A stretch of 39,805 nt of DNA from Muribaculaceae bacterium (GTDB taxonomy: Bacteria > Bacteroidota > Bacteroidia > Bacteroidales > Muribaculaceae), in contig JAIDUH010000215.1 of assembly GCA_029060285.1 (NCBI GenBank), positions 1 through 39,805 on the forward strand, in the 5' to 3' direction. The notes under the pieces were generated by a model that had not been told where the DNA came from, did no database searches, and saw nothing but the letters and a program-made list of their open reading frames with translations. Below are positions 37,690 through 39,805 of this stretch, piece after piece; positions within the stretch are counted from its first letter, which is position 1, and each line of letters begins with the position of its first letter. The position numbers and the translations under genes are program-made.

Positions 37690-38742
37690 ATGAAACTCTC
37701 ACAATTTAAATTCAAGCTCCCCGATGCGCAGATCGCTATGCATCCTTCAGAAAACAGAGACGAATGCCGCCTTATGGTGGTGGATGTACGCGACGGCAGC
37801 ATAAAGCATCACATATTTAAAGAAATAATCAATTTTTTTGAAGACCAGGATGTATTGGTTTTTAATGATACTCGCGTGTTCCCCGCTCGACTTTTTGGAA
37901 ATAAAGAAAAAACTAATGCAAAGATTGAAGTTTTCCTGCTCCGCGAGCTGAATGAAGCAAATAAATATTGGGATGTTCTTGTCGAACCTGCCCGCAAGAT
38001 ACGCATCGGTAATAAACTTTATTTCGGTGAAGACGACTCAATGGTGGCTGAAGTCATCGATAACACTACTTCACGTGGACGCACGCTTCGTTTCCTGTAT
38101 GATGGCCCTCACGATGAGTTCAAGGCAGCCCTATATGCACTTGGTGATACACCTCTGCCTGATTATATCACTCGCGATGCGGAGCCTGAAGATGTAGATC
38201 GTTACCAGAATATTTTTGCCACAAAAGAGGGTGCTGTCATGGCTCCGGCTGCAGGTCTTCACTTTAGCCGAGAACTGATGAAACGTCTTGAGATCAAAGG
38301 AGTGGAACGTGGTTTCATCACCTTGCATTGTGGTCGTGGTAATTTCCGCGATATAGATGTTGAAGATCTCACGAAGCATCGTATGGATTCAGAGGAGATG
38401 TTTGTAGAGGAAGATATTGTGGAGATGGTCAACGCTGCCAAGGATCGGGGATCACGTGTCTGCGCGGTTGGCACTTCCACGATGCGTGCGTTGGTCACCG
38501 CTGAATGCATGAACGGTCATCTTATGCCATTTGAAGGCTGGACTAATAAGTTTGTATTCCCTCCCTACGATTTCACAGTGTGTGACTCAATGGTATCAAA
38601 TTTCCATCTTCCTTACAGCACATTGCTTATGATGGTAGCTGCATTTGGAGGATATGATCTTATAATGAAAGCATACGATATCGCAGTCAAAGAGGGATAT
38701 AGGTTTGGTGCATATGGGGATGCAATGCTCATCCTTCGCTGA
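37690..38742 (+). CDS. queA: S-adenosylmethionine:tRNA ribosyltransferase-isomerase
   Basis: A 350-residue QueA, the step that adds epoxycyclopentane from SAM to 7-aminomethyl-deazaguanine in tRNA on the way to queuosine. Typical segments: [23 protein letters not shown] is represented by its start [10 protein letters not shown], then [45 protein letters not shown] and the C-terminal [19 protein letters not shown]. Length is normal. It closes the rightward ftsX group. A weak terminator-like hairpin follows at 38794. Other queuosine genes are not in this window. Confidence 0.95.
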
Positions 38743-38793
38743 ACAAATATTCCTAAATATGTTAGTACTTGTTAACTAATGGACTAAGACAAA

Positions 38794-38824
38794 GTTAATT
38801 AAGCTTAACATTCAATTTTTTTTG
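38794..38824 (+). terminator. Weak possible terminator after queA
   Basis: GTTAA (38794-38798) and TTAAC (38805-38809) form only 5 AT-rich pairs, with an 8-9 base T-run at 38816-38824. The stem is poor, and read-through into the next promoter region is possible. Confidence 0.3.
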
Positions 38825-38834
38825 GTCAAAACAC

Positions 38835-38865
38835 TTGACAAATGCCTAAAGATATATTATCTTTG
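38835..38865 (+). promoter_or_regulatory. Promoter of left small-RNA cassette (TTGACA-TATCTTTG)
   Basis: TTGACA at 38835-38840 and TATCTTTG at 38858-38865 give a 20-base spacer counted from TTG. This is the closest match to the Bacteroidetes consensus in the window, and CATCG follows, putting the start at about 38870. The sequence from ACTTGACA to TTTGCATC closely resembles the ftsX promoter. Confidence 0.8.
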
Positions 38866-38869
38866 CATC

Positions 38870-38937
38870 GTGTTTTTCATGGTATTAGATTTAAGGTTAA
38901 AGGATAGTTGTCGTGATGACAATTATTCCTTTTTTTT
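38870..38937 (+). ncRNA. Small RNA cassette, copy 1 (about 68 nt)
   Basis: A strong promoter, a short leader beginning GTGTTTTTCATGGTATTA, the block TTAAGGTT and an intrinsic terminator make a complete transcription unit with no room for a normal gene. The leader matches the minus-strand element at the right edge of the window: GTGTTTTTCAT identical, then GTATTA, then TTAAGGTT with a 5-base length difference, then GG and a terminator whose loop contains GTGA in both. A tiny ORF from the ATG at 38879 is not preserved in the second copy (ATA there), so it is unlikely to be a leader peptide. The RNA ends over the recO stop codon, convergent with recO. Confidence 0.7.
38899..38937 (+). terminator. 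Terminator of small-RNA copy 1, overlapping recO stop
   Basis: AGGATAGTTGTC (38901-38912) pairs with GACAATTATTCCT (38918-38930) with G-U pairs and a bulge, then eight T (38930-38937). The T-tract covers the recO stop codon read on the other strand (38936-38938). Confidence 0.85.
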
Positions 38938-39676
38938 ATTTAAATATCTCTTTCAGGATGTCAAGTGATTTCAGATTGTCACTTCCCGGGAAATGAAGGC
39001 CATAATATTTTAAGATGCCGTCGATTATTTCTGATCTTTCCTTTCCTGAAAAATGGAAATGTCTTGCATTGGCATAATTTATCCGTGTTAGCATCGGCAG
39101 AAATCTTGCGCGTTGAGAATCGATCCTGAGGCTATTGGGAGAGATAATGTTGAAAGGGTAGACCATGATGCCGGATTTCATATCAAACTCCATTCCCTCC
39201 CGGTAATCGCTCAAATCTGGCTGTATGCCCATCATATAACTCATGCTTATCAAAAAAGTGATATGAAAATTTGCTGCTGCTGTACGATTTTCAGTGGCAT
39301 CAAGTACTCTGATAGATTTAAATATAAAGTCCCATAGCCTTGCTTCAGCCGGGGCTTCGCGGAGCAGACGCGATAAAAATTCTGAAATAAACAAAGCTAC
39401 TGTAGATTTGAGCGGATCATAGTAAATTGTTCGCCAGATACTCTTGGGCACAATAGAAGTAAGATTATGAATATCTCGCGTAGGGGAAATATTGGCTTGG
39501 GCTTCGATAATGCTCATGGGTTGCAGTCGCGCGATGGTCTGCCGGCTGCTTCTTGAGGCTCCTGCAGGTGTGAGAAAAGCCATGCGTCCACGTTCACGCG
39601 TATAGATGCTTGTGACATTATGCTTGTCGCTATGCTTTATCGTCCCCAATACAATCCCGGTTATATTTTCTTTCAT
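38936..39676 (-). CDS. recO: DNA repair protein RecO
   Basis: A 246-residue RecO, which with RecR loads RecA onto SSB-coated single-stranded DNA. The N-terminal OB-fold (about 1-80) starts ENITGIVLGTIKHSDKHNV and includes IYTRERGRMAFLTPAGAS, followed by an all-helical domain (TVALFISEFLSRLLREAP). No Cys4 zinc motif is present. The ATG at 39676 gives the usual start. No -7 box was found in the 52 bases directly upstream before the neighbouring terminator, so its promoter is unclear. Small-RNA cassettes of similar sequence point toward it from both ends. Confidence 0.92.
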   Translation of the reverse strand: MKENITGIVLGTIKHSDKHNVTSIYTRERGRMAFLTPAGASRSSRQTIARLQPMSIIEAQANISPTRDIHNLTSIVPKSIWRTIYYDPLKSTVALFISEFLSRLLREAPAEARLWDFIFKSIRVLDATENRTAAANFHITFLISMSYMMGIQPDLSDYREGMEFDMKSGIMVYPFNIISPNSLRIDSQRARFLPMLTRINYANARHFHFSGKERSEIIDGILKYYGLHFPGSDNLKSLDILKEIFK

Positions 39677-39728
39677 AATCTTTTTCCAGCTAATTTGATT
39701 ACGATTTACGGATTTTTACCTCATATAC

Positions 39729-39805
39729 AAAAAAAGATCTAACTCTTTTCACAAAGAATTAGACCGAAACCTTAATCTTAATTTAATACTATGAAAAACA
39801 CACTT
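39729..39805 (-). ncRNA. Small RNA cassette, copy 2 (cut by window edge)
   Basis: Read on the minus strand from the right edge: GTGTTTTTCATAGTATTA (from 39801), AAATTAAGA, TTAAGGTTTCGG, then hairpin TCTAATTCTTT-GTGA-AAAGAGTTAGA (39763-39738) and TTTTTTT (39735-39729). The order of parts and the leading 11 bases equal copy 1. The hairpin has a G-U pair on the minus strand but a C-A mismatch on the plus strand, and the T-run is only on the minus side, so the minus strand is the sense strand. The promoter would lie just outside the window. It transcribes toward recO's 5' end and stops before it. Confidence 0.55.

Follow-up and report, generated by a model that had tools for sequence, protein, structure and literature searches.

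FopS small RNAs have been described in Bacteroides thetaiotaomicron, which encodes 14 of them (PMC11697453). In that work the FopS seed R1' pairs with the start region of the susC gene BT_3983, FopS halts BT_3983 translation in vitro, and FopS-10 was shown to pair around the start codon of susC and to keep the ribosome from entering. FopS levels rise with bile salts, and the RRM protein RbpB antagonises FopS in this organism; the same paper ties FopS to RbpB and expects the two to act jointly across Bacteroidaceae (PMC11697453). Its discussion also names the multicopy small RNAs OmrA/B, Qrr and LhrC, which are likewise small paralogous RNAs with a common seed, the likeness being one of mode.

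We analysed a window of 39,805 bases, the entire contig C130 of a Muribaculaceae genome, in which a first-pass annotation had noticed two small-RNA cassettes inverted around recO. Our reading, which we hold with a probability of roughly 0.8, is that copy 1 belongs to the FopS small RNAs and has a diverged sister in copy 2, each being an RNA with a promoter of its own that would block start regions with its seed. Very probably a sigma-ABfr-type promoter belonging to each copy drives an RNA of about 70-76 nt, predicted to stop at that copy's terminator hairpin. The 5' end, which is invariant and unpaired (complement TAATACnATGAAAAAC), would then most likely pair with mRNAs around the start codon and block the entry of the ribosome. 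Copy 1 retains the FopS seed; that of copy 2 is different, fixed and nearer to the seed of GibS. The family match, the conservation, the covariation in class B, the promoter boxes and the lack of RRM_1 and Hfq matches are direct results of the sequence analysis, while transcription, targets and repression are inferred.

Copies 1 and 2 and their family

Both copies lie where the first-pass annotation had placed them. Copy 1 (positions 38870-38938, plus strand) follows queA (37690-38742, plus strand; PF02547, 4.6e-125) and matches the Rfam FopS model RF04319 with 66.1 bits, above the gathering cut-off of 56. Copy 2 (39726-39801, minus strand) matches the same model below the cut-off, with 41.6 bits (E 1.8e-4 for the stretch searched), and judged by its sequence it is to be described as a FopS-like relative, not filed as a FopS member. 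Between them, recO (38936-39676, minus strand; PF02565, 1.4e-11; PF11967, 2.2e-9) converges on copy 1, with copy 2 upstream of it. The window ends 4 bases beyond the start of copy 2, so that the promoter of this copy is off the contig. Contigs also end at or near class B copies elsewhere, 0 bases from the copy in L042 and 54 bases before it in L041; perhaps the repeats disrupt assembly.

The sequence elements that the first-pass annotation had listed are all there. The 5' string GTGTTTTTCAT is exact at 38870-38880 (plus) and 39791-39801 (minus), the two exact sites in the window, and is followed by GTATTA, TTAAGGTT, GG, a hairpin with GTGA in its loop and runs of eight and seven T. With at most one mismatch GTGTTTTTCAT has 6 sites, against 0.9 expected, and 6 sites were reached in none of 100 shuffles. 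The predicted folds of copy 1 (-13.6 kcal/mol, z -2.24) and copy 2 (-15.4 kcal/mol, z -3.16) agree in leaving the 5' part unpaired and in closing with a terminal hairpin. In copy 1 the unpaired part, corresponding to R1' of FopS, covers 38870-38899, and its alignment columns are nearly invariant among 24 orthologues; the terminator hairpin (38899-38932) overlaps the T tract at 38930-38937. The terminator hairpin of copy 2 (39736-39765, minus strand), for which both the fold and the covariation described below speak, is followed by the T tract at 39729-39735.

A search with the Rfam model of the genome assembly to which the window belongs (3.29 Mb, 224 contigs, 81% complete) revealed a third copy on contig C203, with 77.8 bits. 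The genome thus holds several paralogues, as is usual for FopS. Two weaker matches were rejected as further copies, one on C53 (28.7 bits), which is a gene start, and one on C67 (25.4 bits), which is without the 5' end. Membership of GibS (RF04182) was rejected for both copies of the window, whose scores of 35.1 and 30.7 bits fall short of the 115-bit cut-off. GibS shares the 5' end common to both copies, and AAGATTAA with the seed of copy 2, but has a long internal part that is missing here. When the first 32 bases of the class of copy 2 (class B, see below) were aligned to other RNAs, the scores were 30 for a Barnesiella-labelled RNA (L193), 24 for GibS, 21 for FopS of B. faecis, 19 for the class of copy 1 and 17 for that of the third copy.

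As far as sequence can tell, the RNAs of the window are therefore those of a known small-RNA family and belong to FopS or closely resemble it. The suspicion that they are part of a dispersed family was well founded, since this family is in Rfam and has a third copy in the genome; for the window itself this is an ordinary outcome. The likeness to FopS of B. thetaiotaomicron extends to the GTGTTTTTCAT 5' end, the unpaired seed, the terminator hairpin, the TAnnTTTG promoter and the presence of multiple copies. The differences are that 14 copies there stand against the 3 found here in a genome 81% complete, that copy 2 falls below the cut-off and has another seed, and that a protein with the RRM_1 domain was not found in Muribaculaceae. 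In three Bacteroides genomes (G063, G061 and G062) the FopS model gave 16, 13 and 12 matches, the GibS gene counted in.

Orthologous classes and promoters

Copies in the loci that we fetched sort into three classes: A (copy 1), B (copy 2) and C (the third copy, beginning GAGTTTTTCATGG). In a Muribaculum sp. genome (L064, G065) each class is represented once, and some 38 kb separate A from B. Since A, B and C each have their own orthologues across the genus, copy 1 and copy 2 represent separate lines of descent. A fresh local duplication was rejected on account of the third genomic copy and these separate orthologues; together with the Rfam entry, the same evidence bears out the earlier preference for a pair from a dispersed family.

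The 5' parts are strongly conserved within classes. All but a few columns are invariant in the class A alignment of 24 sequences, and the first 33 columns of the class B alignment (20 sequences) are uniform except for a deletion of 2 bases (3 rows) and the loss of 1-2 bases at their end (2 rows). The classes differ in what their hairpins can say about the earlier proposal that selection acts on RNA structure. In class B, 98.8% of the cells are paired and both sides have changed in 7 of 13 pairs; covariation as high was seen in none of 500 shuffles, and the signal was lost when the partners were slid against each other. Structural selection is thereby shown for the class of copy 2. The class A hairpin is nearly unchanging in its 24 sequences, and because it hardly varies it neither supports nor opposes the proposal for copy 1.

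Copy 1 has the canonical sigma-ABfr promoter of FopS: the -7 box TATCTTTG (consensus TAnnTTTG) lies on the plus strand at 38858-38865, four bases before the copy, and a weak candidate -33 element, CTTG, at 38834-38837 on the same strand, 20 bases before the box. A scan of 38700-39805 for sites of the sigma-70 type gave 3, with 3.4 expected. TAnnTTTG precedes the 5' end by 3-6 bases in 25 of 26 distinct copies of class A, in 24 of 26 of class C and in 19 of the 24 class B orthologues with upstream sequence, the remaining 5 being near misses. A minus-strand box near the start of copy 2, anticipated by the first-pass annotation, is thus seen in most orthologues of this copy, while the window itself ends before it. 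In seven near relatives (L041, L043, L060-L063 and L065) TAACTTTGCAAGT or TAATTTTGCAAGT stands directly before copy 2, and the window closes with the AAGT that they share.

The promoters of class C have a further feature, the palindrome ATGTTnTATAACAT, which was found in 26 of 29 at -46 to -43 (e.g. L016, L017 and L035), compared with 1 of 27 in class A, 0 of 22 in class B and 0.7-1.7% of shuffled sequences. The test allowed at most 2 mismatches in the 75 bases before each copy; as the palindrome had been derived from these very sequences, the count is inflated, though not to this extent. Other FopS copies, those of Bacteroides included, have the palindrome in 14 of 31 cases, mostly at -35 or -67. 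A regulator of FopS, itself unknown, is postulated in the accessible part of PMC11697453, where no palindrome, inverted repeat or operator is mentioned. The class C palindrome is a candidate site for this regulator.

The recO neighbourhood and other readings of the locus

A QueA search was used to fetch 80 loci, the closest of which are labelled Muribaculaceae, while some carry other labels such as uncultured Porphyromonadaceae, Bacteroidales or Bacteroides sp. Class A or B was present in 13 of them and both in 8, and in all 8 recO lies between the two. In an enlarged set, consisting of these loci, the window and stretches chosen for showing close pairs, A or B was found in 33 loci and both in 25; two contigs had been fetched twice, which leaves 23 distinct loci with both. 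Among these, recO lies between the copies in 18 and next to the pair in 3, and was not located in 2. The strands of A and B are opposite in 13 of the loci and identical in 10. About 21 kb separate A from B in genome G032. Because the position of recO, the strand and the spacing differ among loci, the neighbourhood of A, recO and B is old but loose, and the inverted arrangement seen in the window is not fixed.

This looseness bears on two readings in which recO is central. Copy 2 might be a leader or attenuator of recO, its terminator setting the read-through into the gene. In the window the two are on the same strand and 50 bases apart, and the order is repeated in the seven near relatives named above, but class B is unchanged in loci where recO is on the opposite strand (e.g. 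L037, L040, L044, L045, L047, L049, L050, L052 and L077) or was not found beside it (L038 and L039), and we consider a recO leader unlikely. The pair could instead form the ends of a mobile element or repeat cassette around recO and have no regulatory role. The inversion in the window would suit such an element, as would the occurrence of FopS-like copies on 18 viral stretches, in 4 phage records and in 20 records of a plasmid collection. Against it, orientation is not kept in the 23 distinct loci, as the 13 to 10 split of strands indicates, and each copy comes with its own promoter box and terminator, features that make this account very improbable.

A third reading turns the conserved block around and sees in it the start codon, with its leader, of an opposite-strand protein gene that runs off the contig. 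The complement of the block does read TAATACTATGAAAAAC, much like a gene start, the frame of ATGAAAAACACACTT is open to the end of the window, and the weak RF04319 match on C53 is just such a gene start. In the orthologues, however, wherever the contig is long enough, the antisense ATG frame closes after 5-65 codons, mostly after 7, as is also the rule in class A, so this ATG is not the start of a conserved gene. Hairpin, T tract and promoter box moreover all run in the direction of the small RNA, and a protein start is scarcely credible.

The viral stretches deserve a brief description. By eye, the TAnnTTTG box is present in 11 of the 18. On one viral contig (L232, 3818-3922) the FopS-like 5' end comes 2 bases behind a tRNA-Arg gene of its own strand and lacks TAnnTTTG. 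TRNA-like ends before the FopS 5' end were also seen by eye in L233 and L246, where ARAGORN calls no tRNA.

Distribution in Muribaculaceae and predicted targets

FopS matched in 47 of 61 relatives: besides the genome of the window, these were 35 of 36 from its genus and 11 of the 24 that belong to other families. A draw of 147 family genomes, representing 26 genera, gave a FopS match in all 147, with 140 of them above the cut-off. With the same draw settings, neither RRM_1, the domain of RbpB, nor Hfq had a match in any of the 147 genomes; the controls were positive as expected, among others RRM_1 in Bacteroides ihuae and Hfq in E. coli. RRM_1 was likewise without a match in the genome of the window and in 23 genomes of the genus. 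A sensitive RRM profile built from 4 Bacteroidales proteins gave weak matches in 14 of the 147 genomes at E up to 10, and fast-changing RRM proteins could escape it. Its sole match below 0.001 (G179, 1.2e-4) overlaps a frame of 457 residues, to which it probably lies antisense on the minus strand, and was taken as spurious. RRM_1 was found in 8 of 14 genomes from other families, of which 4 had both it and FopS, 1 FopS only, 4 RRM_1 only and 5 neither, several of the FopS matches being weak.

What is new here is the presence of FopS throughout a family without matches to its known protein partner, together with a split of seed and promoter between classes. Since FopS occurs throughout the family and RRM_1 matches are absent, FopS seems to persist without need for an RRM_1 protein. 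In the literature listings searched we found no published statement to this effect, and the word Muribaculaceae is absent from the accessible part of PMC11697453. The RNAs of this family would accordingly have to function with neither an RbpB-like RRM protein nor Hfq. This also sets them apart from the multicopy small RNAs of Pseudomonadota, among OmrA/B, Qrr and LhrC, which are Hfq-dependent. Our tentative view of the family, which we would put at slightly under even odds, is that FopS is universal in it and that the RbpB-type RRM protein and Hfq were lost or never present, the RNAs being bare or bound by another RNA-binding protein. Class C would share the operator ATGTTnTATAACAT, class A would be a steady FopS type, and class B would have a GibS-like seed with targets of its own. 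A gut family with FopS in every sampled genome and RRM_1 unmatched offers a natural test of what RbpB contributes, and is a place to seek another chaperone for FopS.

The complements of the seeds of copy 1 and copy 2 both read as a leader followed by a start codon. Duplex predictions against the genome of the window, made with a simple start-codon rule that ignores mRNA structure, showed start regions to pair better with seeds A and C than with their shuffles, of which 0 of 200 did as well. In a first such test, under the same rule, SusC had seemed to be preferred (shuffled seeds did as well in 1 of 300 cases for A, in 0 of 300 for C and in 165 of 300 for B), but the preference vanished with other genes as a control: for seeds A and C the 19 SusC starts paired no more strongly than 43 exported-like or 56 other starts (Mann-Whitney p 0.16-0.34). 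Because A and C pair equally with all starts, blocking of start regions by these seeds is plausible, while SusC is not specifically supported as their predicted target. Seed B paired with SusC starts no better than chance would have it (124 of 200 shuffles equalled or beat it); for other genes it had a weak excess (6 of 200). Copy 2 probably has a different target set, because its fixed seed differs and is nearer to GibS, and its targets are probably other than SusC.

A search of the same genome for the complement of the seed with at most 3 mismatches gave 15 matches, against 3 for a reversed control; 3 of the 15 are the small-RNA copies themselves. The predicted partners, named by eye, are mixed and include a TolC-like frame (L202), a small membrane protein (L212) and an RNase R-like frame (L213) besides unnamed ones, and no SusC stood out among the matches. 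At about 1160-1200 of L210, on contig C165 of this genome, seed A pairs at -28.3 kcal/mol with a leader region that lies some 60 bases upstream of an ATG; this region may be a target, or else a decayed copy on the opposite strand.
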